Below, one piece after another: positions 8,626-63,948 of a stretch of 64,000 nt of DNA (position 1 is its first letter; every line of letters begins with the position of its first letter). The stretch is from an uncultured Eubacteriales bacterium (GTDB taxonomy: Bacteria; Bacillota; Clostridia; Peptostreptococcales; Anaerovoracaceae), in the NCBI GenBank assembly GCA_949285555.1, contig CASDYG010000006.1:1-64000 (forward strand), given 5' to 3'. The notes beneath the pieces were generated by a model. That model saw only the letters and a program-made list of their open reading frames with translations, was not told where the DNA came from and searched no databases. The position numbers and the translations under genes are program-made.

Positions 8626-11220
8626 ATGAATTTAGATAGATATACACAAAAAAGTGCAGAAGCTATAATGTCTGCACAAAATATAGCTACAGCCAAGGGC
8701 CACCAACAGCTGGAAATAGAGCATTTACATCTAGCTCTTATGCAGCAGAGTGAAGGGCTTATTCCAAGTATATTAAAGTCAATGGATAAGTCCACTGAAA
8801 GAATTATAGAGGGTTTAGAGGCCATCCTTGACAAAATGCCTAGGGTATCTGGAGCAGCTTCAGGAGTATATATGTCCAGAGGCATGCAGGGCCTCATGAT
8901 TAAGGCGGAAGAAGAATGCAAGCAGATGAAGGATGACTTTGTAAGTGTTGAGCATTTGTATCTGGCTATTTTAGAGGCAAAGGATTCCAAGGGGCAGGAA
9001 GTACTGAGAAAAGAAGGTATCAAAAAAGAGACCTTTCTACAGGCATTATTAAAGGTGAGAGGAAACCAAAGAGTGACTACACAAGATCCGGAAAATACAT
9101 ACGATGCTTTAAATAAGTATGGTAGAGATTTAGTAGAGCTTGCAAAAGCTGGAAAGCTGGACCCCGTAATTGGCAGAGACAAGGAAATAAGACATGCGGT
9201 AGAAATTCTATCCAGAAGAACCAAGAATAATCCTGTGCTGATAGGTGAACCAGGTGTTGGAAAGACTGCCGTAGTGGAAGGACTAGCACAAAGAATATTA
9301 AATGGAGATGTACCTGAGGGTCTTAAAGATAAGACTATTTTTGCTCTTGACATGGGTGCTTTAATAGCAGGGGCAAAATTTAGAGGTGAATTTGAAGAAA
9401 GGCTTAAAGCGGTAATAAATGAGGTAGAAAAATCTGATGGAAGGATTTTGCTTTTTATTGATGAAATACATAATATTGTAGGAGCAGGAGCTTCAGAGGG
9501 AGCCATGGATGCCGGTAATCTTTTAAAACCTAAACTGGCAAGAGGAGAACTTCACTGTATTGGAGCTACTACCCTTGATGAATATAGAAAGTATATTGAA
9601 AAAGATGCGGCACTTGAAAGGAGATTTCAAAAGATAATCGTAAATCAACCTTCTGTGGAAGACACTATTTCTATCCTTAGAGGCTTAAAGGAAAGATTTG
9701 AAATTCATCATGGAGTTCGTATCACTGATGATGCATTAATTGCCTGTGCGACTTTATCTGACAGATATATATCCGATAGATTTTTGCCGGACAAGGCGAT
9801 AGATTTAATGGATGAGGCAGCTGCAAAAATTAGAACGCAAATTGACAGTATGCCTCAGGAAATTGATGATATATCAAGAAGAATAATGCAGCTTGAAATA
9901 GAAAAGCAGGCTATAGGTCGTGAAAAGAATAAGGAAAATGATGGCAGGTTAAGCAGTCTTTCAGAAGAAATTGCTTCTTTAAAGGAAGAAGAAAAGGAAC
10001 TTAGAGGCAGGTGGGAGGCTGAAAAAAATGCAATCAGTCAGTTAAAGGCTACCAAGGAGCAGATTGAAGAGGTCAAGCTTCAAATTGAGGAGGCTAATAG
10101 AAAATATGACCTTGAGACTTTGGCAAAGCTAAGCTATGGAGTTTTACCGCAGCTGGAGAAAAAGCTGGGAGAAGAAAAGGATAAAGTTAGAGCGTCGGAG
10201 GAGAGCAGACTTTTAAAAGAAGAGGTAACTGATGAAGAAATAGCACAAATTGTATCTCAATGGACGGGAGTTCCAGTTACAAGATTAGTAGAAAGCGAAA
10301 GAGAAAAGCTGCTCAGATTAGATGAAATATTGCACAAAAGAGTAATTGGTCAAGATGAAGGTGTAACATCTGTAGCTGAGGCTATACTCAGGGCCAGAGC
10401 GGGATTGAAGGATGAAAATAGACCGATTGGTTCATTCATATTTTTAGGACCTACTGGCGTTGGAAAAACCGAGCTGGCCAAGGCATTATCCGAGGCTTTG
10501 TTTGATAGTGAAAAAAATCTTATCAGAATTGATATGTCAGAGTATATGGAGAAATATGCGGCTTCGAGATTAGTGGGAGCGCCTCCTGGATATGTAGGCT
10601 ACGAAGAGGGAGGACAGCTTACAGAAGCGGTGAGAAGAAAGCCATATAGCGTAATTCTTTTCGATGAAATAGAGAAGGCTCACCCTGATGTGTTCAATAT
10701 ATTATTACAACTTTTAGACGATGGTAGACTTACAGATAACCAGGGAAGAACGGTAGATTTTAAAAATACAATTGTGATTATGACATCTAATATTGGAAGT
10801 CAGACTCTCCTTGATAAACTTGAGAAGGATGGGGATATTGATGATACTACCAAGGAAAATGTTGAGTCCCAGTTACAGAGCTACTTCAGGCCAGAGTTCT
10901 TAAATAGAATTGATGATATAGTAGTATTTACTCCGCTGTCTAAAGATGAAGTAAGAAAGATAATTGACTTATCAATTAAGGCTCTTGAGGCCAGAATAAA
11001 TGCTAAGGGCTACCAGCTTGAAGTTTCAGATAAAGCAAAGGATATTATTGCTTTGCAGGCATATGACCCTGTATATGGAGCAAGACCGGTTAAGAGATAT
11101 ATTCAAAAGCATTTGGAAAATGAACTAGCAAGGGAGATAATCAAGGCCGATCATATGCAAGGCATGGTTCTAGTTGTGGATGGAAAAGGCGAGGAGCTTA
11201 TATATTCCGTTAGACAGTAA
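8626..11220 (+). CDS. clpB: ATP-dependent disaggregase ClpB
   Basis: 864 residues, the full family length. It works with DnaK to pull apart aggregated proteins in the cytosol after heat stress. Domains in order are: the N-terminal Clp-N repeat (about 1-145); AAA+ domain 1 with Walker A GEPGVGKT (about 206) and Walker B LLFIDEIHN; the long coiled-coil M domain (about 400-535), which distinguishes ClpB from ClpC; AAA+ domain 2 with Walker A GPTGVGKTE (about 608) and LFDEIEKAH; and the C-terminal small domain. The start is the ATG at 8626, five bases after AGGAGG. The GTG at 8620 overlaps that site. The CIRCE element upstream indicates control by HrcA; no CtsR gene is in the window. Confidence 0.98.
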   Translation: MNLDRYTQKSAEAIMSAQNIATAKGHQQLEIEHLHLALMQQSEGLIPSILKSMDKSTERIIEGLEAILDKMPRVSGAASGVYMSRGMQGLMIKAEEECKQMKDDFVSVEHLYLAILEAKDSKGQEVLRKEGIKKETFLQALLKVRGNQRVTTQDPENTYDALNKYGRDLVELAKAGKLDPVIGRDKEIRHAVEILSRRTKNNPVLIGEPGVGKTAVVEGLAQRILNGDVPEGLKDKTIFALDMGALIAGAKFRGEFEERLKAVINEVEKSDGRILLFIDEIHNIVGAGASEGAMDAGNLLKPKLARGELHCIGATTLDEYRKYIEKDAALERRFQKIIVNQPSVEDTISILRGLKERFEIHHGVRITDDALIACATLSDRYISDRFLPDKAIDLMDEAAAKIRTQIDSMPQEIDDISRRIMQLEIEKQAIGREKNKENDGRLSSLSEEIASLKEEEKELRGRWEAEKNAISQLKATKEQIEEVKLQIEEANRKYDLETLAKLSYGVLPQLEKKLGEEKDKVRASEESRLLKEEVTDEEIAQIVSQWTGVPVTRLVESEREKLLRLDEILHKRVIGQDEGVTSVAEAILRARAGLKDENRPIGSFIFLGPTGVGKTELAKALSEALFDSEKNLIRIDMSEYMEKYAASRLVGAPPGYVGYEEGGQLTEAVRRKPYSVILFDEIEKAHPDVFNILLQLLDDGRLTDNQGRTVDFKNTIVIMTSNIGSQTLLDKLEKDGDIDDTTKENVESQLQSYFRPEFLNRIDDIVVFTPLSKDEVRKIIDLSIKALEARINAKGYQLEVSDKAKDIIALQAYDPVYGARPVKRYIQKHLENELAREIIKADHMQGMVLVVDGKGEELIYSVRQ

Positions 11221-13225: not shown

Positions 13226-16200
13226 ATGAGTGGAAATAAAAGATTTAAGACGTGGATGAGTGTCATACTTTGTATGACTTTGTGCCTTTCTATGGTCACA
13301 TCATACACTCTTACAGGGCCGCTTATAGCTTCTGCTGATGAGCAGACTAATGGAACGGAGAAAGTGGCTGTAGAGGACAAGTCAGAAACAGGAAGTAGCG
13401 AAAATGATTCTGAAAATGTAAGTCCTGGCGAAGAAGATCAAACAGCCAGTCCTGAAGAAATATTAGCAAATAAAGAATCTCAGCTTCAAGAAGCTAAAAA
13501 GCAAGGTAATGCTGATAAGATCAAAAAGCTTGAAAAAGAGCTTGGTGAAGGCTATTTATCTTTGATTACAGAAATTTATGAAAAATATTATAGTGGAAAA
13601 AATGGAGAGAGGGTTGAAAGTCAGCTAAGAAATAATGAAGAAATTGCTTCATATCATGAGCTTAAGAAAGAAATAACTAATATATTAAATGATGAGACTG
13701 CTAAATGGGAAAAGCTAAAGGATGTTTATCTAAAAAGCAATGAATTTAATTATCCCAGAGAGCTAACTGATAGTGAGAAGCAGCTTTTGGATAAGCTTAA
13801 TGATGCAAGGTCAACACTTCCTCCATACATGCATGGAAGTAATCAATATGAAACACTTATTGAAGAATATAAAAATCTTTCAGATGAAATAGAGAATATA
13901 ACAGATCCTTTTACACAGGAACCTGCAAAAGAAGAAATAGAAAAAAAGACAGCTAAGCTGGAAGAGCTAGTTGCACTTCTTAATAAAGCATTAGAGGAAG
14001 GAAATATTAAAAGGGCATATACTGCGGGAAATGGAGTTGAAATTAAGGCATTTCTTCTGAACAGCTATATGTTTCCTACTAAGCTATTAGATGAAGAAGT
14101 ATATTATCTTCCTCAAAATGTGCCGGTAAATATATTGCTTCAATTTGCTAAGGATGAAAAAAATAACGACTTTGAAGTTGAAATTAAAGCACAGGGAGAG
14201 CATTTACTGGGAATAAGTCCTGCCAAGTTAAAGCTCTATTCTGGTGGAAATAATTATGATTTTAATCTTGAAGATGGCATATATAAAGCGAAGGTGAAAA
14301 ATTCACAGGCAGGTATAAGCCAAACGATATTTACCATAAAAGGTCTTACTGGAGAATTGCATCAGGGCTTTACTATGACAATTAGGGCTGGCTCAGGTGA
14401 CAAAATGAGCGAGCTTTCCAGAGAGTTTTTAATAACAAAATCAGGTTATAAAGATGATTTCAAAGTAGGTGGAATTGGTGATTTTAATGATGATACAAAG
14501 TCATATCCGGTTGTTGATGCAGGAAGTGCCGATGAAAAAGGCCTTGTAAATATTGATACGGATAAAATTGTTGATATCCTTCCTTATTTTGAGAAGAATA
14601 GTTACTGGATAGATGAAGTACTAAAGAATGGTACGCCAGACTCTGTTGAACTTGAGCATGCACGTATTGAAATTAAGCTTCCAAGCTTTGACGGCAAGCT
14701 TGCCAAGTATGTTGAAAGAAATGGCATAAAATATGAATATGATGCAGATAAAGGCATTTTAGTATTAGATGTTAGTAGAAAGCTTATTAAATCAAATATT
14801 AAGGTAGATGAGAATGGAATAGCATCTATAGGTGGGATACCAATTAGCAATGCCAAGCTAAAGGATGTAATTTTGTTTGATGGTAAGAATTATGTCTATA
14901 TAGACGGCGATGATAAGGTTTTTCCTGTAACTGTTATGGAAAAAAGAGCATTTGCTGACAATCCAAATCTATACTTAGTAGGAAATACAATTTATAAAAA
15001 AGACGGAGATAGTTTTACAAGGGTAGGAATTTATAGAGAAAACAGGCTCTATACTATAGATGGAGAAAACTATCTTGCCTATAATCCAGATACTAAGGAA
15101 CTTGAAGAAAAGCCGGTGTTTGTGGAAATGATGAGCGATGCACTTTTGCAATATCAAAATAAGTTTAAGGTAACAAAGGGTGTTGCATTTAACAAGGATG
15201 GTATTGCTCATCCGGAAATAGTGGAAGTTACAGGAAAAAGCATTGTACTAAAGGATGATGCGGAGAAGTATTTTGCCGGAAGAATAGTAACTGATGAAAA
15301 ACGTTTTGTTATTGATAATGAAAAAAGACTTCATGATGCAGAGGATTACAAAACGAAAACGGATGCTGTAGTAGATGAGAGTGGAAAGCTGACGGATATT
15401 GATGCGACAGGTCTTGAGCATAAGAAAATAAATAATAAGGACTATGTTGTATTTAATAATAAAACCTATGCTTTTTATAAAAAGGCTGTATTTGACAAAG
15501 AAAATATGGCTTTAATACCAGGTTACACATTTGAAGATAATTCTAGTGAGCATGCTCTTGTAGTAGATAGATATGGCAGACTAAAGGATTATTTTGCTTC
15601 ATTTAAGGATGGAGTGTGGACCTTTACACAGCAAAATAAAGACGGTAGCACGAATACAAGATCTACTTTGGAGGACAATGTTTTAGTAGAGGACTCTACG
15701 ATTATTGTGGGTGGCCAGGATAAGCTCATGACAGGAGATGAAGCGAAGAAGCTTGAGCGTGTAGAAGGTGATTATTATTATAATGGCACTATCTTTACAA
15801 AGGCAGATAGCAGCTCTGTAATTGGCGAATATTTTTATACCCAGCTATTTAAAATATTGCTTGAAAGCAAGGAAAAAACTGTAACTTATCAAAAAGACGG
15901 AAATACAGTTAATATAGATGATAAGAAAATAATTGAGGGGTCAACCGATAAAAATCTTTACTTTGAGTATGACGGAAAACTTTATGTAAAGGATAAGGAC
16001 AGAAATGTATACAAGCAGATAAATGGCAATGATGTTCTCACGGATAAAGATTTAGCTGTTATCCTTCAAAAAACTGATCAAGGTGACAAGCTTGCAGGTG
16101 AAGGGAAGCTGTACGACTTTTTAAATAAGGCAAAGATTGGCCTTAAGCTTCCAGGCTTTCATGTTGGACCTGAATTCATTTACACACTTATTACTACTGC

Positions 16201-19200
16201 AAGCTTAAAATATTTAGACCCATCTACGGGAGAAATAAAGGATGTATTTAGCAGCGTAGAAGGCAAAAAAGAGGTGGTAAAGAAATTCACCCTAAAGCCA
16301 ATGCCGGAGAAACCAGCTGATTTTGGAAAGAATGCTCCTCGTGAATTAACAAGTGGTAAGCCTATGGATTACCAGGTATTTAATCTCTTATTTAGAGGAA
16401 CTGATGATAGGGAGCGAGATTCTATTTTTACTCGTCTTTTTACAGAAGCAGATCTAACTGATAAAGAAAAAGCATTAAAGGATCTTATTGAAAAAGAATA
16501 TAAAATAATTTATAAAAAAGACATCAAATTTGTAGATGGAAAAATTGTAGCAGTAGATGAAAAGGGGAAAGAGTCCAGTGTAGAGAGAAGCCTAGCTTGG
16601 GAAATTTACATTTCCAGTGAGGATAAGGATGGATACCCTGCAGGAAATGATGAGCAAATCATCATTGATGATACTAACCTAGATAACAGGCTGGTTTATG
16701 AAACGGTAATATTTAGAGATACGGATGAAAACTATCAGCTTGCCAAGCAAACGGCGGAAAAAGCTGGTGAAAAATTCCAATCTTTAGATAGCTTAACCTC
16801 TATAGATGAGCTGGCCTCCATAGACCTAGGTGTAAATCCTTATTACACTCATCAGGCATTTGTTCCGGTAAGAGGGCTTAAAATAAAAGGAGAAGATGTT
16901 CTGGCATCTCTGGGAGATAAGGAAGAAGCCAGCATTACGTTAAATGTCGGTGGTGAGATTAGACCTGTAAAGATAATTAGAGATAGACAAAAGGGAACGA
17001 TTTCTATATCAGTTAAAGATGCTTTCTTAATGAGTGATGGTATAAGTCAGGTGCAAAAAGCATATGATCAGGAAAAGGCATTATATGCAGAGGAAATCAC
17101 TAATGCGGCTAGTATTGATGATATAAAGAAGATAATAGATACTCATTATAAGGATTCACCTTGTGAGAAAGAGCTACGGGCAATAGTTGATGAGCAATCT
17201 AAGATTATAGAGGAAAGCCCAGAGCATTTTAGCAAATTAAAAAATGCTATGATAAGTGTTCTGGAAAGAATGGACATAAACTACATTGAGGAAACTAAGA
17301 AATATAAGAATAGTAGCTTTAATGCTCTGAGGATAAGACTTAAAGAGGGTGTAAAAATAGGTGGTGCACTTAATCCATCTAATACAAGAAAAACCGTAAA
17401 TATTACATCAGTAATTAAGTCTGGCGTAGATCTGCCGTATACTGATGAATATGGAGAGAAGCTGACTAATTTTGAAATGTATTATACAAGATACATAAGA
17501 GAGGCGCTTCTTTCAGATGAATATAAGGACATAGTAAAAGGCAGGCTCAATGAAAATTCCGATCCGCAAAAATTCCTGTCCTTTGCTAAGGAAAATCTTT
17601 CAGAGAAGGCGTATAGGCAGCTACTTATGAATGCCCATAAAAAGGCAACTGCAGAAAATATTAAAACTCTTGTAAAGGGTGATAAGCTTGTAGACGCCAT
17701 GGGTATGATGATATACCATCCGGTAGAGGGTAGAGATTTAGCAATAAATGATCTTACTGACGCAAAGGGAAATCCATTAAAGGATAAGAACACAGGAGCT
17801 CTTATAAATGGATATTACACTGGTGGAAAAGGCATGGAGGAACTTGGTATAGTATCTGAAGAACTTGTACATCAGTCCATTAATTTGATAGGCTACTATC
17901 TGAACCCATTAGGCTATGATAGAGCTACCTTTGCAAATAGTGCAAATCATAAAATCATAAGCCCTAATCCAGCACCTACTTTATTTGGTGATAAAGATGC
18001 ATGGAAAAAGAAAATATGTCCTGACGGTATATTAGGATCATGTCTATTAAACTCAGGAATGATTGCAAGTGATGGTGAAGATGTGGATAAAATTCCGGAT
18101 TCATATCTGGAAAAATCAGGTTCAAATGTAACCATCTCATACGAACCGCCAACAACCACTCCGGATGAAGAAAAACCAAAGGTAGATAAGACATCAGATA
18201 AATCGGTAATAGATTTTAATGATGATGAGGCAGCGAAAAATATAAGCTTTAATGTAGCGCTGACTGTGGATCATAAATCTTTAAATAGCTATATTACAGA
18301 CCTTGCAATCAAAACTGGAAAAAGCATGGAAGAAATAATGAATGAAAATGCCGAGCTTCTTTCAAACTATAATGAAAATGGATATATGGTTATAAAAAAT
18401 GGTCTGCTGATAGATCTTCTTCCAGAAGTATTAGATACAAAGGATATGAAGGTGACAGTTAAGCTAGATGATAAAGCACTTTTAGCTGGTGGAGCTAATA
18501 AAAATTTGGATTTAGATGCATTTAAGGCAGGTCTAAAGCCAATCTATGTATCCGATTTAAATTCATATATTGATAGCATAAAGACTAAGGATAAAGATAA
18601 ATATGAAATTCTTGAAAAGATGCTTAGTTCGCTAAAGAGCAGGGGAGAGGCTATAGGCGAAAAGCAGGGTGCTGTGTTACTGTGGCTTCCGGAGTTTGAA
18701 GCGCCTCATGGTAGCAATAATCAAGTAGTGATGACGCTGGATAATCTTACTGTACATAAGGATAGCAGATATGGAATGTGGGAGAATAAATCTATTTATA
18801 CCAGTATCCCATGGGAAGGCTATTCATATAAGAAGTTCAGAGTTCAAAAGAAGAATGAAGGAAATGTAAATAAATATCTTCGAGTTTTTGATGCAGAAGG
18901 CAATCCATTAGTTACTGATGATGAATGGTTTCAGGGTACTGCTAACCTTACCTTAGGGGATAAATTTGATTACAAAATAACCTTTAAAGCTGATGCTACT
19001 ACAGATACTAGTAGTATGGGAGGCTATGAAAGCCTAATCTCAGAACTGGTATTTGAGGATATACTGCCAAATCTGGATGAATATGGTATAAGACCGGTAT
19101 TAAGGGAAAAAATCAAAGTGCCTCAGAATTTCCAGGTAACCTACTACGATAAGGAGGGAAGAATTCTTGAAGGAGACTTCGATCTTTCACAAGTATATAA

Positions 19201-42605: not shown

Positions 42606-44621
42606 ATGATTAATTTGCAGTGGCTACCCGTTGTGGCTGCAGCTATTGGACTCATTGTGGCCTTCATCCTTGGTTCTTGGATTAGCAAGAGCAGTGAAGG
42701 AACAGACAGAATGAAGGAGCTGAGTGGCTTTATTAGAGAAGGTGCCATGGCGTTTCTTAAGAGAGAATATAGAACCATGGTTATAGTAGTAGCCGCTTTA
42801 TTCTTACTTATAGGCTTTGGACTTCATAATTGGATAACAGCCATTCTTTATTTATTAGGTGCTTTATTATCAGTACTAGCAGGATTTTTTGGCATGAATG
42901 TTGCAACAAAAGGTAATGTTAGAACAGCATGGGCAGCTAAAGAGTCAGGAATGGCAAAGGCACTTCAGATTGCTTTCAGAAGTGGTGCTGTTATGGGGCT
43001 TTGCGTATCAGGTCTTGGACTTATTGGACTTGGAATCGTATTTTGCGTACTAGATCTTGCTACCGTTACAGAGTGTGTTACAGGCTTCGGTCTTGGAGCT
43101 TCATCTATGGCTCTTTTTGGAAGAGTAGGTGGTGGTATCTATACGAAGGCAGCTGACGTAGGAGCAGACCTTGTTGGAAAGGTAGAGGCTGGTATTCCAG
43201 AGGATGATCCACGTAACCCTGCAGTTATTGCTGACAATGTAGGTGATAACGTAGGTGACGTTGCAGGTATGGGATCTGACCTTTTCGAATCATATGTTGG
43301 TTCCATTATTTCTGCCATTACTCTTGGAGCAGTAGCTGTTACCAATGCACCTAGTGATGCAAGCTTCACAACTTTAGATGCAGGTGCTTTTCCACTTCTT
43401 TTATCAGGACTTGGAATCATTGCATCTATTATAGGTATTCTATTTGTAAGAGGTGGAGAGGGTAAGAATCCTGCATCCGCACTTAATATGGGTACTTATA
43501 TCAGCGGTATCATAGTTATTATCGGCTCCGTTCTATTGAGCAAATATATGCTTGGAAGTCTTAACTATGCATATGCGATTATCGCTGGACTAATTGTAGG
43601 TATAGCTATTGGTAAGGTTACAGAAATTTATACCTCCGGTGACTACAAATTCGTAAAGAAAATTGCAGACCAGTCTCAGACAGGATCTGCCACCACTATT
43701 ATAAGTGGTCTTGGTGTAGGTATGCTATCTACGCTTTGGCCAATCCTATTTATAGTTGTTGGAATTATTGCCAGCTATTACTTTGCAGGACTTTATGGTA
43801 TTGCACTTTCAGCAGTAGGAATGCTTTCAACTACAGGTATGACAGTTGCTGTGGATGCTTATGGTCCAGTATCAGATAACGCTGGTGGTATAGCAGAAAT
43901 GGCCGAACTACCACATGAAGTAAGAGAAATAACTGACAAGCTTGACTCAGTTGGAAATACTACAGCAGCTATCGGTAAGGGATTCGCTATAGGATCAGCA
44001 GCTCTTACTGCATTAGCTCTATTTGCTTCATACGCAACAGTAGCAAAACTAGATATAGTTAGCCTGCTTGACCCAATTGTAATTGTTGGATTATTTATTG
44101 GAGCTATGCTTCCATTCCTATTCTCTGCTCTTACTATGAATTCAGTAGGAAAGGCTGCTAACCAGATGATAGAAGAGGTTAGACGCCAGTTCAGAGAAAA
44201 TAAGGGTATTATGGAAGGAACTACTAAGCCTGACTACGCTAGGTGTGTAGAAATTTCTACAGGCGCAGCATTAAAGGAAATGGTTATTCCAGGCTTAATG
44301 GCAATAATCGCTCCTATAGCTGTAGGATTTATTTTAGGAGCAGCTGCACTTGCTGGACTTCTTGGTGGAGCTCTATCATCCGGTGTTTTACTTGCTATCA
44401 TGATGGCAAATGCTGGAGGAGCATGGGATAATGCGAAAAAATACATAGAAGAAGGTCACTTTGGTGGAAAGGGATCTGACTCTCACAAGGCGGCAGTTGT
44501 AGGAGATACAGTAGGAGATCCATTTAAGGACACCTCTGGTCCATCTATCAATATCTTAATTAAGCTTATGACAATAGTTTCTCTAGTATTCGCACCATTA
44601 TTTGGAGCTGGATTATTCTAG
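42606..44621 (+). CDS. hppA: Membrane-bound ion-pumping pyrophosphatase, K+-dependent type
   Basis: 671 residues, about 16 membrane helices. It couples hydrolysis of pyrophosphate to Na+ or H+ export across the membrane. PPi/Mg-binding motifs are [19 protein letters not shown] and [32 protein letters not shown] and the C-terminal [17 protein letters not shown] complete the site. In [12 protein letters not shown] the position that decides potassium need is Ala, which marks the K+-dependent class. Most such Clostridial enzymes pump Na+, but the ion is not proven here. AGGAGG precedes the ATG. A terminator follows. Confidence 0.97.
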
Positions 44622-44687
44622 ATAGACATTATCAATATTTGTGACTGATTATATATGTCACAAAAGCAAGATGAATTTAATGTAATT

Positions 44688-44714
44688 AAAAAGGTGCCAG
44701 TCGGCACCTTTTTT
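44688..44714 (+). terminator. Intrinsic terminator of hppA
   Basis: A perfect stem AAAAAGGTGCC / GGCACCTTTTT (loop AGTC) with a T run. Confidence 0.93.
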
Positions 44715-44774
44715 ACTGTTTAGGCATATAATATAAATTTCTAAAAGAAAAATTTAAAAAAATAATGTTACCTA

Positions 44775-44802
44775 TTGACAACAAACTACAAAAGTGTATA
44801 AT
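44775..44802 (+). promoter_or_regulatory. Promoter of predicted short RNA A
   Basis: Perfect TTGACA (44775-44780), 16-bp spacer, perfect TATAAT (44797-44802). Confidence 0.88.
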
Positions 44803-44805
44803 ATA

Positions 44806-44821
44806 GTTAGCATTACCTAAC
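44806..44821 (+). promoter_or_regulatory. DtxR/IdeR-like operator at +1, copy A
   Basis: GTTAG-CATTAC-CTAAC, containing TTAGCATTACCTAA, which resembles the DtxR/IdeR box TTAGGNTANCCTAA. It overlaps the predicted start of transcription, the right place for a repressor. Confidence 0.5.
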
Positions 44822-44891
44822 ATATTGAGTTTTTCAAAAGTACCTCAAACAAATTGAAAAGCTACCCCCGATTAGTCGGGGGTTTCTTTTT
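44809..44891 (+). ncRNA. Predicted short RNA A (about 83 nt), or attenuated leader of the EamA gene
   Basis: From the predicted start (about 44809) to a strong terminator (44864-44891) there is no ORF. The transcript holds a TTGAG/CTCAA stem with loop, a single-stranded GUACCUC segment complementary to Shine-Dalgarno sequences, and a C-rich GCUACCCCC. The same promoter and 5' half recur in copy B, which supports a discrete RNA rather than only a leader. Confidence 0.55.
44864..44891 (+). terminator. Terminator of short RNA A
   Basis: ACCCCCG / CGGGGGT stem, loop ATTAGT, then TTCTTTTT. It lies 60 nt before the EamA start codon. Confidence 0.9.
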
Positions 44892-44951
44892 GTGATATAA
44901 TGTCACTACAGTGGCTATGATCAATAGCTTGTAAATAGGAGGGTTACAGAG

Positions 44952-45863
44952 ATGAAATGGCGTGCATATCTATCCGCACTTATAGTATCGGTAACAGTTG
45001 GCTTTTCTTTTCTGTTTGTTCGTGATACCCTGCATTTTACCACTACCTATGATGCCCTAACATATAGATTTATAGCTGGATTTTTACCTCTTGCTTTCAG
45101 CTTTCCATTCATGAAGGGCAGGGTGAATTTTTGCATTAAAAAGCTAAAAAAGCTTAGTGTAATAGGATTTGCATATCCACTTGTTTTCTTTGCTGGTCAA
45201 GCACTAGCTTTAAAACTTGGAAATGCAGTAGAAGTAGCTGGAATTTTTGCGATGGCTCCCGTGATAACACTAATACTTGCCGCAATAATATTAAAGGAAA
45301 CAACAACAGTCTTACAAAGACTATCGGTATTTGTTTCAGCAATAGGCGTAATTCTTATAGTAGCAAGTCATGGAATTTCAATTGAGAACATTTCCGTAGG
45401 TGGGATTTTAATAGCAATTTTGTCTACCATATCTTTTTCCGTCTATACAATTTTACTTAGGGGAACAAGAGGAGAGTATAATGGCTATGAATTTTTATTT
45501 TTCCTTATGGGGCAGGCAGTAGTAGTTAGCCTAATATTTTCCATACTAATGCATAGTATAGATGGGCAGTGGTATCAAATGATCATACCTCTAAAGAGCA
45601 GCACCTTCATAAGAGGCGTATTATATCTTTCTATACTTTCAACATTATTAAGTGCCTATCTGACAAGTTATAGTCTTAAATATATTACAGCTACACAGAT
45701 GAGTGTCTTTAATAATTTAAGTACCGTGATACAAATCTTGGCTGGTATTTTCATAGTGGGAGAGAAAACAAATATGATTCAGCTTATAGGTTGTGTGCTT
45801 ATTATTGTGGCTGTTTTATCAATTAATATTAAGAATATAAAAAATAAAGGGGAAAATACATAA
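44952..45863 (+). CDS. EamA/DMT family transporter
   Basis: 303 residues, ten predicted membrane helices in two EamA repeats (about 1-140 and 150-295). VTVGFSFLFVRDTLHF at the start, then VEVAGIFAMAPVITLILAAIILKE and, in the second repeat, YLTSYSLKYITATQMSVFNNL and LAGIFIVGEKTN are the usual conserved stretches of drug/metabolite exporters. The substrate (amino acid, nucleotide, drug or other) cannot be read from sequence. AGGAGGG precedes the ATG at 44952. It is flanked on both sides by copies of the same promoter-operator repeat. Confidence 0.9.
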   Translation: MKWRAYLSALIVSVTVGFSFLFVRDTLHFTTTYDALTYRFIAGFLPLAFSFPFMKGRVNFCIKKLKKLSVIGFAYPLVFFAGQALALKLGNAVEVAGIFAMAPVITLILAAIILKETTTVLQRLSVFVSAIGVILIVASHGISIENISVGGILIAILSTISFSVYTILLRGTRGEYNGYEFLFFLMGQAVVVSLIFSILMHSIDGQWYQMIIPLKSSTFIRGVLYLSILSTLLSAYLTSYSLKYITATQMSVFNNLSTVIQILAGIFIVGEKTNMIQLIGCVLIIVAVLSINIKNIKNKGENT

Positions 45864-45878
45864 ATTTTATGTTAGCTA

Positions 45879-45906
45879 TTGACAACATGCTATAAAGGTG
45901 TATAAT
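45879..45906 (+). promoter_or_regulatory. Promoter of predicted short RNA B
   Basis: TTGACA (45879-45884), 16-bp spacer, TATAAT (45901-45906). Confidence 0.88.
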
Positions 45907-45909
45907 ATA

Positions 45910-45925
45910 GTTAGCATTACCTAAC
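45910..45925 (+). promoter_or_regulatory. DtxR/IdeR-like operator at +1, copy B
   Basis: GTTAG-CATTAC-CTAAC, identical to copy A and in the same position relative to the -10. Confidence 0.5.
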
Positions 45926-45988
45926 ATATTAAGTTTTTCAAAAAAGTACCTCAAAAAAAAGAAAGGGTAGCCCCCTTCTTTTTTTTTT
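45913..45988 (+). ncRNA. Predicted short RNA B (about 76 nt)
   Basis: It has its own promoter and terminator, and no gene follows on this strand, since the next gene is convergent. It therefore cannot be a leader and is best read as a small RNA, unless it is a remnant of a duplicated promoter. The ACCUC segment is kept, while the TTGAG/CTCAA pairing of copy A is lost through G to A. Confidence 0.55.
45953..45988 (+). terminator. Bidirectional terminator between short RNA B and trkH
   Basis: An A-run with AAGAAAGGG, loop TAGCC, CCCTTCTT and ten T (one bulged A). The minus strand also gains a T run, so it can end trkH as well. Confidence 0.8.
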
Positions 45989-46055
45989 AAATTAAAGTTA
46001 TATATTCTAAACATGGTAGTATCTTAGCATTATGAAAGCTTATCCATTTTATACT

Positions 46056-47516
46056 TTATGAAAAAGCTTGGTTTGGCTTCCAAAATGACCTTGAAAATAT
46101 AATTAGTAGGGCATAGATTTCCAGCCTGCCAAATAACATAAGTGTAGCACATACAAGCTTACCAAAGCTTGAAAAGCAATTAAAGTCTCCATTTGCTATT
46201 TCTGCAAGCCCAGCACCGTTATTACTTAATGATGCAATTGCACCAGAGATAGTTGTCATTAGGTTCTGGTCCTCAAAGGATAGCAAAAACATGCCGATAG
46301 CAAGCACGAATAAATACATGAGGATGTATACACTAATGGATGATGCATTGGCAGCACTAACAATATTACCATTTATCAATACAGGCTTTACTGCCTTTGG
46401 ATGTATTCGTTTATAAATTCCTCGGATGATTAACTTTATGAATACCATTACCCTTATTATTTTTAATGAGCCGGCAGTTGAACCACTACACCCACCAATT
46501 AATAGTAAAATGAGCAAAATAAACTGAGATATATTTGGAAGCTCGTTGACATTTGTAATGGAAAAGCCTGATGTAGAAACATATCCTACTACCTGCACAA
46601 GTGCATCCCCCATGGCAGAGAAAAGATCATCATAGAGGCTACTGAGTCTCATAGCCACTCCCATTACAATAGATGTAATGATTATTAAGGAAATATACCA
46701 CTTGAGCTCAGGGTCCTTTTTAATTTTTTGCCACTGTTTAGTATATGTGTGAAAAAAGATTATAAAGTTGATAGAGCCAAGTATGGTGAAAAGCGTGATT
46801 ACAGCTTTGACATATGGTGAAAAGCCAAGAGCAATTTCTCCTCCTGTGCTATATATACCTGCCGTGCTTATGGTTGTCATCGTGTTTATAAGAGCTGGAA
46901 AGAGTCCCATTTTTGATAGATATAATAGTAGAAACTCAACTGCTGTTAAAAAGATGTATATTAAATATGTGGTTTTTGCTGTATCGCTTATTCTGGCAGA
47001 AGTCTTAACTATTTCAGGACCGGTTATTTCGCTTGAAGCCAGCTTAAGTCCACTTATTCCAAGGCTTGGAAGTATGGAGATTGTCAGTACAAGAATACCG
47101 ACACCGCCTAGCCAATTAGTAGTCGCTTTCCACATTAAAACAGCCATTGGAAGCTTGATTGGATCAATTACAAAGCCACCTGTCGTGGTCCAACCGGAAA
47201 TGGATTCAAAAAGGCAATCCACAAAGCTGTAATCAAGGCCGCTCAGGTAGTAAGGAAGTGTACCTATAAGACATATTACTATCCAGCTAATGGTAACAAG
47301 CATAAGACCATATCTGTTATTTAGAGTTGTCTTAAAAGGCCTCAATATCTTAAATAAGGCAAGACCAAGAAGTAGGGAGGTGAAGGCAATACTAATAAAT
47401 GCAGGAATCAGATAAAACTCCTGATATATATAGCCTACTATAATGGCGGGAATCATAGCTATGCCTTCAAAGATTAAAATGGTAGATAATGTTTTTACCA
47501 TTATGTATTTATTCAT
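46056..47516 (-). CDS. trkH: TrkH/KtrB family K+ channel subunit, second copy
   Basis: 486 residues, membrane protein with four membrane-pore-membrane repeats. The four selectivity-loop segments are visible: SGWTTTGGF (about 108), STAGIYSTGGE (about 216), YVSTSGFS (about 312) and LSNNGAGL (about 432). Each keeps the key Gly. It forms the K+ path gated by TrkA. The first two helices and LIGTLPYYLSG are typical. It follows trkA-trkH on the minus strand after a 124-bp gap with its own promoter, so it may be expressed separately. Confidence 0.95.
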   Translation of the reverse strand: MNKYIMVKTLSTILIFEGIAMIPAIIVGYIYQEFYLIPAFISIAFTSLLLGLALFKILRPFKTTLNNRYGLMLVTISWIVICLIGTLPYYLSGLDYSFVDCLFESISGWTTTGGFVIDPIKLPMAVLMWKATTNWLGGVGILVLTISILPSLGISGLKLASSEITGPEIVKTSARISDTAKTTYLIYIFLTAVEFLLLYLSKMGLFPALINTMTTISTAGIYSTGGEIALGFSPYVKAVITLFTILGSINFIIFFHTYTKQWQKIKKDPELKWYISLIIITSIVMGVAMRLSSLYDDLFSAMGDALVQVVGYVSTSGFSITNVNELPNISQFILLILLLIGGCSGSTAGSLKIIRVMVFIKLIIRGIYKRIHPKAVKPVLINGNIVSAANASSISVYILMYLFVLAIGMFLLSFEDQNLMTTISGAIASLSNNGAGLAEIANGDFNCFSSFGKLVCATLMLFGRLEIYALLIIFSRSFWKPNQAFS

Positions 47517-62848: not shown

Positions 62849-62924
62849 GGGCGCATAGCTCAGCTGGGAGAGCACCTGCCTTACAAGCAGGGGGTCATAG
62901 GTTCGAGCCCTATTGCGCCCACCA
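62849..62924 (+). tRNA. tRNA-Val (anticodon TAC)
   Basis: Acceptor GGGCGCA/TGCGCCC, anticodon arm CCTGC-CTTACAA-GCAGG, encoded CCA. First gene of the cluster. Confidence 0.96.
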
Positions 62925-62941
62925 TACAATCACAAAAAATT

Positions 62942-63018
62942 GGCCTGGTAGTTCAGTTGGTTAGAATGCCAGCCTGTCACGCTGGAGGTCGACGGTTCGA
63001 GCCCGTTCCAGGTCGCCA
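62942..63018 (+). tRNA. tRNA-Asp (anticodon GTC)
   Basis: Acceptor GGCCTGG/CCAGGTC, anticodon arm CCAGC-CTGTCAC-GCTGG, discriminator G as usual for Asp, encoded CCA. Confidence 0.96.
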
Positions 63019-63031
63019 ATTTTTTATACTT

Positions 63032-63106
63032 GCTGGCGTGGCTCAACGGTAGAGCAGCTGATTTGTAATCAGCAGGTTGGGGGTTCGATTCCCTCCGCCA
63101 GCTCCA
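63032..63106 (+). tRNA. tRNA-Thr (anticodon TGT)
   Basis: Acceptor GCTGGCG/CGCCAGC, anticodon arm GCTGA-TTTGTAA-TCAGC, encoded CCA. Confidence 0.96.
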
Positions 63107-63135
63107 ACCTCATTACTCACGAGGCTAGGGTATTT

Positions 63136-63220
63136 CGAGGGATTCCCGAGTGGCCAAAGGGGGCGGACTGTAAATCCGTTAGCTTTGCTTTCGATGGTTC
63201 GAATCCATCTCCCTCGACCA
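63136..63220 (+). tRNA. tRNA-Tyr (anticodon GTA)
   Basis: Class II tRNA with a long variable arm (TTAGCTTTGCTTTC region). Acceptor CGAGGGA/TCCCTCG, anticodon loop CTGTAAA, encoded CCA. The first base is C. Confidence 0.94.
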
Positions 63221-63227
63221 ATTATAA

Positions 63228-63302
63228 GCGGAAGTGGCTCAGGGGTAGAGCATCGCCTTGCCAAGGCGAGGGTCGCGAGTTCGAATCTCGTCTTCCGCTC
63301 CA
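63228..63302 (+). tRNA. tRNA-Gly (anticodon GCC)
   Basis: Acceptor GCGGAAG/CTTCCGC, anticodon arm TCGCC-TTGCCAA-GGCGA, encoded CCA. Confidence 0.96.
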
Positions 63303-63306
63303 ATAT

Positions 63307-63380
<74 letters not shown>

Positions 63381-63398
63381 TTTTTTTCTTAAAAGTGT

Positions 63399-63475
63399 GG
63401 GCTCATAGCTCAGTTGGATAGAGCAACGGCCTTCTAAGCCGTGTGTCCGGGGTTCGAATCCCTGTGGGCTCACCA
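63399..63475 (+). tRNA. tRNA-Arg (anticodon TCT)
   Basis: Anticodon arm ACGGC-CTTCTAA-GCCGT, encoded CCA. The acceptor GGGCTCA/TGGGCTC contains two G-U pairs. Confidence 0.94.
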
Positions 63476-63495
63476 TTTTTTGCAAGGTGAGATAG

Positions 63496-63570
63496 TGGGG
63501 TATAGCCAAGCGGTAAGGCGACGGACTTTGACTCCGTCATGCGTAGGTTCGATTCCTGCTACCCCAGCCA
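63496..63570 (+). tRNA. tRNA-Gln (anticodon TTG)
   Basis: Acceptor TGGGGTA/TACCCCA, anticodon arm ACGGA-CTTTGAC-TCCGT, discriminator G, encoded CCA. Confidence 0.96.
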
Positions 63571-63574
63571 ACAG

Positions 63575-63650
63575 GATCCATTAGCTCAGTCGGTAGAGCA
63601 CTTGACTTTTAATCAAGGTGTCCGGAGTTCGAATCTCCGATGGATCACCA
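63575..63650 (+). tRNA. tRNA-Lys (anticodon TTT)
   Basis: Acceptor GATCCAT/ATGGATC, anticodon arm CTTGA-CTTTTAA-TCAAG, encoded CCA. Confidence 0.96.
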
Positions 63651-63678
63651 ATTTATTAGCCCAATGTAGAATCCATGT

Positions 63679-63767
<89 letters not shown>

Positions 63768-63776
63768 TACAGATCT

Positions 63777-63869
63777 GGAGAAGTACTCAAGAGGCTGAAG
63801 AGGACGGTTTGCTAAACCGTTAGGGTTCATATTAGGGCCGCATGGGTTCGAATCCCATCTTCTCCGCCA
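63777..63869 (+). tRNA. tRNA-Ser (anticodon GCT)
   Basis: Class II, long variable arm. Acceptor GGAGAAG/CTTCTCC, anticodon arm ACGGT-TTGCTAA-ACCGT, encoded CCA. Confidence 0.96.
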
Positions 63870-63872
63870 TGT

Positions 63873-63948
63873 AGGGGTATAGCTCAGTTGGTAGAGCAGT
63901 GGTCTCCAAAACCACGTGTCGTGGGTTCGATTCCTACTGCCCCTGCCA
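63873..63948 (+). tRNA. tRNA-Trp (anticodon CCA)
   Basis: Acceptor AGGGGTA/TGCCCCT (one T-G pair), anticodon arm GTGGT-CTCCAAA-ACCAC, encoded CCA. Confidence 0.95.

Follow-up and report, generated by a model that had tools for sequence, protein, structure and literature searches.

In the stretch of DNA analysed here (64,000 nucleotides; hereafter, the window), two similar units, termed A and B, lie as direct repeats on either side of a gene for an EamA-family transporter. We propose that they specify a lineage-specific, Hfq-independent pair of small RNAs (sRNAs) that is controlled by a DtxR-family repressor and probably spares iron, a reading to which we give a probability of roughly 55%.

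The two units share one layout, and their anatomy is beyond what chance would produce (Table 1). In both, the box GTTAGCATTACCTAAC begins three bases 3' of the -10 hexamer, and the expected transcription start (~44809 in A, ~45913 in B) falls inside it. The preliminary description of the window had claimed TTGACA-16-TATAAT promoters, a shared palindrome at the predicted +1, an ORF-free stretch with an intrinsic terminator in each unit and the absence of a gene 3' of B on its strand, and all of these elements were borne out: both promoters are perfect, the palindrome is identical, each unit has its own promoter with a predicted transcript within the 50-200 nt range, no protein gene lies in either of them, and the next large ORF beyond B is on the opposite strand. 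Perfect TTGACA-16/18-TATAAT promoters are scarce in this genome, with 18 in 863 kb (the window plus 40 further stretches). A terminator-like hairpin lies within 130 bases of just 3 of them, two being the promoters of A and B. The third is found at position 9099 of another stretch (L211; G000:C2:20001-40000). In addition, 6 terminator-like hairpins were found on the two strands of positions 44600-46100, versus 0.8 in shuffled sequences, and those of A (44864-44883) and B (45963-45977) are both on the + strand. The terminator of B looks like one when read on the - strand too, so trkH may also make use of it.

Table 1. Features of units A and B and their surroundings in the window, and further exact GTTAG-N6-CTAAC sites in the same genome (contig:position)
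Feature	Position	Strand	Remarks
Unit A	44775-44891	+	promoter, box, ORF-free body, intrinsic terminator
Promoter of A	44775..44802	+	TTGACA 44775-44780, TATAAT 44797-44802, 16-base spacer; 12/12 consensus
DtxR-type box of A, GTTAGCATTACCTAAC	44806..44821	+	exact; spans expected start site
Predicted RNA A, ~83 nt	44809..44891	+	inferred from -10 and terminator
U-rich block of A, UUGAGUUUUUCA	44825..44836	+	could pair with gene starts
GUACCUC anti-Shine-Dalgarno segment of A	44840..44846	+	loop of predicted hairpin; same in B
Intrinsic terminator of A	44864..44891	+	8-pair stem, 6 G-C, T-rich tail
Candidate extended -10 of EamA gene, TGATATAAT	44893..44901	+	read from the sequence; good -35 not seen
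EamA-family transporter gene, 303 aa	44952..45863	+	PF00892
Unit B	45879-45988	+	promoter, box, ORF-free body, intrinsic terminator
Promoter of B	45879..45906	+	TTGACA 45879-45884, TATAAT 45901-45906, 16-base spacer; 12/12 consensus
DtxR-type box of B, GTTAGCATTACCTAAC	45910..45925	+	identical to the box of A
Predicted RNA B, ~76 nt	45913..45988	+	inferred; mostly unstructured 5' of terminator
U-rich block of B, UUAAGUUUUUCA	45929..45940	+	one substitution relative to A
GUACCUC anti-Shine-Dalgarno segment of B	45946..45952	+	same as in A
Intrinsic terminator of B	45963..45988	+	terminator-like on - strand too
Large ORF, trkH by eye	46056-47516	-	first large ORF beyond B
Box site	C3:184871		before DUF2325 gene, then DUF3793
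Box site	C3:251123		before ahpC; box again directly 3' of TATAATATA
Box site	C3:251843		before thioredoxin-reductase-like gene
Box site	C4:76129		before long ORF with signal-like start
Box site	C7:27599		before feoA-feoA-feoB
Box site	C10:24943		before TetR gene
Box site	C10:25710		before ABC transporter gene

Aligned from the TGTTA 5' of the -35 hexamer to just past GTACCTCAAA, A and B form a block of 88 columns with 7 substitutions and one 2-base indel, all of which spare the promoter hexamers, the box and the GTACCTC stretch, and this likeness could come from a recent duplication. The terminators of the two units are different sequences. RNA A is predicted to fold into a stem of about ten pairs that presents GUACCUC in its loop, followed by the strong terminator (-22 kcal/mol; z = -3.9 for the whole RNA against shuffles), and RNA B to stay open up to its terminator (z = -2.2). 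Without their terminators, the bodies fold no better than shuffles (z = 0.69 for A and 0.75 for B). A conserved TGTTA(C/G)CTATTGACAACA overlies each -35 hexamer (44766-44783 and 45870-45887) and can be read as a degenerate GTTAG-N6-CTAAC, which in B takes the form GTTAG-CTATTG-ACAAC; GTTAACTATTGACAAC is also present at the feo promoter of a relative, G136 (L105, L126). We postulate that this conserved site may be a second, weaker operator.

The box of A and B, described earlier as DtxR-like, proved to be shared with feo and other iron-linked genes, both in this genome and in its relatives. The 1.45-Mb genome (G000, ~90% complete) contains 9 exact copies of GTTAG-N6-CTAAC versus one match for a reversed-pattern control, and a box with one mismatch precedes a NEAT-like gene (Pfam score 32.2 bits, cut-off 32.8). 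Across the genus set, which comprises G000 together with G083, G136, G170 and G197, an exact box is found before feoA in all five genomes (with Pfam run for G000 and the others assigned by eye). The four relatives hold 29 exact sites, and others among these lie, by eye, before ahpC-like genes (two genomes), a DUF2325-like gene (one genome) and several ABC and TetR genes; as the exact sites in the relatives have no control count of their own, the argument there is their gene context. When one mismatch was allowed, the box was found 30 times in G000 versus 24 for the control, and 16-30 times in each of the relatives, which is below the control (39-49). With 3 mismatches, the 14-base core given in the preliminary description is no commoner in the window than chance predicts (14 found, 15.4 expected). 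The informative object is the exact GTTAG-N6-CTAAC rather than this loose core.

The preliminary description had also proposed a genome search for a DtxR/IdeR/MntR regulator, and this search uncovered a DtxR-family gene encoding 121 aa, with both PF01325 and PF02742 scoring over cut-off. It has the same orientation as feoB and is separated from the 3' end of that gene by ~2.8 kb and four ORFs. In G136, dtxR and feoA are divergent with the box between them, and in G083, G197 and G170, the feo box lies slightly more than 3 kb from dtxR. From this co-occurrence, we infer that the DtxR protein of this genome binds GTTAG-N6-CTAAC. The presence of the box at the feo sites makes iron a likelier signal than manganese, in a comparison that for metal uptake covered iron genes only.

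With regard to the wider family, TATAAT followed by the box within 0-8 bases was found in 90 of 349 genomes, versus 4 control matches, and this combination is likely to mark candidate iron regulons across the family. We inspected 30 of these loci by eye (L157-L186) and found that L168, L179 and L181 precede feo-type genes, that L184 serves feo and that L159 and L162 lie before DUF3793-like genes; box loci preceding ABC transporter and heavy-metal-domain ORFs were also seen. No clear unit resembling A or B was seen among these 30 loci. As candidates for ORF-less units, L162 was rejected with its DUF3793-like gene on the other strand, and L164 resembles a terminator hairpin; L163, L166, L171 and L183 were assigned neither as gene-serving nor as A/B-like. 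One further stretch, from another genus of the family (L151; G194:C6:19600-20700, positions 528-645), has an exact box with a TTGACA-17-TATCAT promoter in front of it and a hairpin ending in a T-rich tail behind it, and no ORF of at least 40 aa lies between these elements. By eye, a Clp-like ORF precedes this arrangement and a T-box-like leader follows it. It may represent an analogous iron-controlled small RNA of unrelated sequence.

Beyond the promoter, conservation of the RNA body was found between A and B only and in none of the relatives searched. More specifically, when a model of the 88 columns was run on 247 of the 349 family genomes, the four other genus members included, it detected homologues in G000 alone; this search used strict filters and scored up to 17 candidates per genome. 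B and A themselves scored 98.8 and 95.2 bits, and everything else at most 20.9, the score of the next match, at the feo promoter of G136. The model matched 68 places (A and B included), and inspection of 28 further ones and two own sites (ahpC and NEAT-like) revealed, by eye, groES promoters of HrcA/CIRCE-like type, DtxR-type promoters, and other promoters or coding sequence. Searched for as a sequence pattern with 2 mismatches allowed in 296 family genomes, the RNA body was found only in G000 and, with 2 mismatches, once in G077. By eye, the G077 site precedes another promoter and a feoA-like start, and it was rejected as a homologue. BLAST searches of the genus returned, beyond A and B, short promoter fragments only; the composite unit pattern was found nowhere in the contigs of the genome collection, and the core pattern nowhere in viral contigs. 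At gathering score, the Rfam matches in the window were confined to tRNAs, with no RyhB, PrrF, FsrA or other family among them. A cluster of 12 tRNA genes is located near the end of the window (62849-63945).

The cassette of A, the EamA gene and B follows a gene named hppA by eye. In the three relatives readable at this place, it is absent, and different sequence and genes follow hppA over ~1.5 kb (the G197 contig leaves ~90 bases after hppA, and a second hppA-like match of G170 is outside this comparison). The best match of the EamA protein in the four other genus genomes has 26% identity, and the genome collection yielded no relatives of it, in a search whose reach is limited to close relatives and from which near genomes may be missing. 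Given its absence after hppA and the lack of a detected homologue, this lineage seems to have acquired the cassette or made it anew. The preliminary description had considered the case in which relatives keep the promoter while the RNA part changes; at the locus itself, this case does not arise, because it is the whole cassette that is missing, but the relatives do keep only the promoter and box. Most trans-acting sRNAs are said to be poorly conserved (PMC9410917).

Pairing of the RNAs with mRNA starts was assessed on 779 ORF starts, drawn from ~60% of the genome, in samples of 397 and 382. Judged by the mean of the top 10 pairings, none of 160 dinucleotide shuffles matched the real core of either A or B. 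With GUACCUC kept and the part 5' of it shuffled, 3 (A) and 4 (B) of 160 were as good, and since shuffling this part lowers pairing, the U-rich block appears to add to it. The single best pairing energy is unexceptional (14 of 160 shuffles as good for A, 3 of 160 for B). Likewise, perfect seed matches of at least 8 bases did not exceed shuffles: 5 were found versus a mean of 3.3 in plain shuffles (78 of 300 had as many) and of 7.1 in shuffles that keep GAGG (206 of 300). Of the anti-Shine-Dalgarno pairing claimed earlier for GUACCUC, the mean of the top 10 pairings stands out from shuffles, but exact seeds do not.

The iron-starvation role claimed earlier, insofar as it implies specificity for iron-protein targets, was not supported. 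A preset test on sample 2, with 11 crudely labelled proteins of 382, showed no better pairing of proteins with iron-sulphur motifs (p = 0.77 for A, 0.88 for B and 0.87 for their sum). In sample 1, iron proteins had crowded at the top (rubrerythrin, NuoF-like, cysteine desulfurase, DUF2148 and HemA); sample 2 did not confirm this, and a test with patterns chosen after viewing the list was not counted. Among individual genes, rubrerythrin ranks 2 (A) and 3 (B) of the 779 starts, and starts above it include an isoleucyl-tRNA-synthetase-like gene (by eye). With either copy, its start-codon region is predicted to form 12 base pairs and its Shine-Dalgarno sequence a further 6, and the net gain on cofolding is about -21 kcal/mol. 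The desulfoferrodoxin gene, ~0.9 kb from rubrerythrin and oppositely oriented, has an exact GAGGTAC and a small net gain (about -7), and the longest exact seed match, 9 bases, is with a DUF2148 ferredoxin-domain gene. We regard rubrerythrin, desulfoferrodoxin and the DUF2148 gene as predicted targets, with the rank of candidates only. Rubrerythrin is clustered with desulfoferrodoxin, on the - strand, and with an ORF that is Fur/PerR-like by eye (positions 15285-17102 of stretch L195; G000:C3:1-20000), and this oxidative-stress cluster contains no exact DtxR-type box. No Hfq was found in the five genus genomes, in a search whose control was positive in 5 of 14 and with G000 ~90% complete.

Our proposal is that a single small non-coding RNA gene is present here in two copies, A and B. 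With iron in ample supply, an iron-loaded DtxR-family repressor would occupy the box across the start site, and because the expected start lies inside the box, the bound repressor should block initiation. When iron is low, both promoters would fire and produce RNAs of ~83 and ~76 nt that end at the intrinsic terminators. Their shared core (UUrAGUUUUUCA, an A-rich spacer and GUACCUC) would be complementary to mRNA starts, with GUACCUC covering the Shine-Dalgarno sequence and the U-rich block covering starts of the AUGAAA type. The translation of some mRNAs would thereby probably be lowered and iron spared, without Hfq.

The units could instead be tied to the EamA gene. A would then be an iron-controlled promoter with an attenuated leader of that gene, leaky at its terminator so that the transporter would be expressed under iron starvation, and B a promoter relic of a tandem duplication whose second gene was lost, with no RNA function. 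Such an origin would fit units that flank EamA as direct repeats, with A ending 60 bases 5' of the EamA start on the same strand, and the 130 bases from its box to that start are a distance seen where other boxes serve genes. Moreover, among the 38 exact sites of the genus (9 own and 29 in relatives), 36, A included, have an ORF of at least 70 aa starting within 200 bases. The exceptions are B and L100 (28 of the 29 relatives' sites have such an ORF); L100, flanked by a tRNA-like stretch and a hairpin and with no promoter seen by eye, was rejected as an A/B-like unit. That B has no such ORF counts for the sRNA reading, as does the terminator-like hairpin between box and ORF, which was found, among these 38, only in A (8 pairs, 6 G-C) and, weaker, in L121 (8 pairs, 3 G-C). 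The strong 8-pair terminator that ends A speaks against a leader, as does the candidate extended -10 of EamA itself, and a relic would not be expected to retain a 12/12 promoter, an exact box, GUACCUC and a terminator of its own, as B does; nor was an EamA remnant noticed after B. On balance, we consider this explanation unlikely, if by no means far-fetched. It is very unlikely, in our view, that the units act in cis or merely as sites, with the EamA mRNA ending in B, which would also be antisense to the 3' region of trkH, or with the boxes serving as decoys that titrate DtxR. In our scan, the first + strand terminator past the EamA stop (45863) was that of B, where an EamA mRNA would therefore end, and on the - strand this hairpin is terminator-like too. 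However, overlap with a trkH mRNA would be confined to the terminator region, and a decoy needs neither a perfect promoter nor a terminator.

Other alternatives concern the signal, the target set or the product. That the same RNAs respond to manganese, another metal or peroxide rather than iron has some appeal, because DtxR-family proteins include MntR, and the boxed ahpC and thioredoxin-reductase-like genes belong to oxidative stress; the exact box upstream of feoA in all genus genomes and the one-mismatch box before the NEAT-like gene weigh against it, and we give it little credence. A narrower version of the DtxR-controlled, Hfq-independent, lineage-specific pair holds that in low iron the RNAs shut off rubrerythrin and desulfoferrodoxin, by pairing over both Shine-Dalgarno sequences and, for rubrerythrin, over the start codon too, while the box turns on ahpC and the thioredoxin-reductase-like gene, so that an iron-dependent oxidative-stress defence would be exchanged for an iron-free one. 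This swap strikes us as doubtful, and decidedly improbable in its full form. Finally, the notion that the units encode a very short peptide starts from a TTG-initiated frame of 10 codons within A. B has TTA at the position of this TTG, the 2-base indel between the copies shifts the frame, and no ribosome-binding site was seen; with the frame thus broken by the comparison of A and B, a peptide is hardly credible.

If the sRNA pair is real, the same regulatory solution would have arisen anew from an unrelated sequence, in a lineage with small genomes and no detectable Hfq, and A and B would form a precise and easily testable locus. The DtxR-type box is useful on its own as a marker of what is likely an iron regulon throughout the family. 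None of the open-licence PMC papers retrieved on DtxR in clostridia describes, in its title or the opening of its abstract, a DtxR-controlled sRNA in Clostridia; with the literature limited in this way, that is only a weak sign that there is none.

Several groups are known to have iron-sparing small RNAs under Fur control, and in mycobacteria such an RNA has an IdeR site, IdeR being a repressor of the DtxR family. RyhB, PrrF and FsrA are Fur-controlled, and PrrF1 and PrrF2 are a pair of near-identical copies. A and B would resemble RyhB and PrrF in functional logic, and PrrF also in occurring as paired copies; Fur control sets RyhB, PrrF and FsrA apart from A and B, which have no Rfam match. 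RyhB and PrrF are also Hfq-dependent, according to one publication (PMC9410917), whereas no Hfq was found here. The same publication presents FsrA of Bacillus subtilis as an iron-sparing sRNA that binds the Shine-Dalgarno sequence via a C-rich motif and is said to depend on FbpA, FbpB and FbpC (PMC9410917); the C-rich, Shine-Dalgarno-directed design would be common to A and B, and the Fbp dependence is a difference. A similar design is reported there for staphylococcal IsrR, an iron-repressed Gram-positive sRNA with C-rich single-stranded regions, for which models of the complexes include the Shine-Dalgarno sequence (PMC9410917). As far as that account goes, IsrR differs from A and B in being under Fur rather than DtxR, in its genus-wide conservation and in its three stem-loops.

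None of these systems is claimed as a homologue, and by its logic, the nearest one would be MrsI. In a review, MrsI (ncRv11846) of mycobacteria is described as an iron-starvation sRNA ~100 nt long whose start lies near an IdeR site, whose terminator is predicted and whose short seed pairs with the 5' UTR of iron-protein mRNAs (PMC11188477). It differs from A and B in sequence and organism, in being a single gene rather than a pair and in having known targets; it is also described as highly structured, whereas B is predicted to be almost unstructured before its terminator. By the same description, what MrsI would share with A and B is a DtxR-family operator near the start, a terminator and the logic of a seed.
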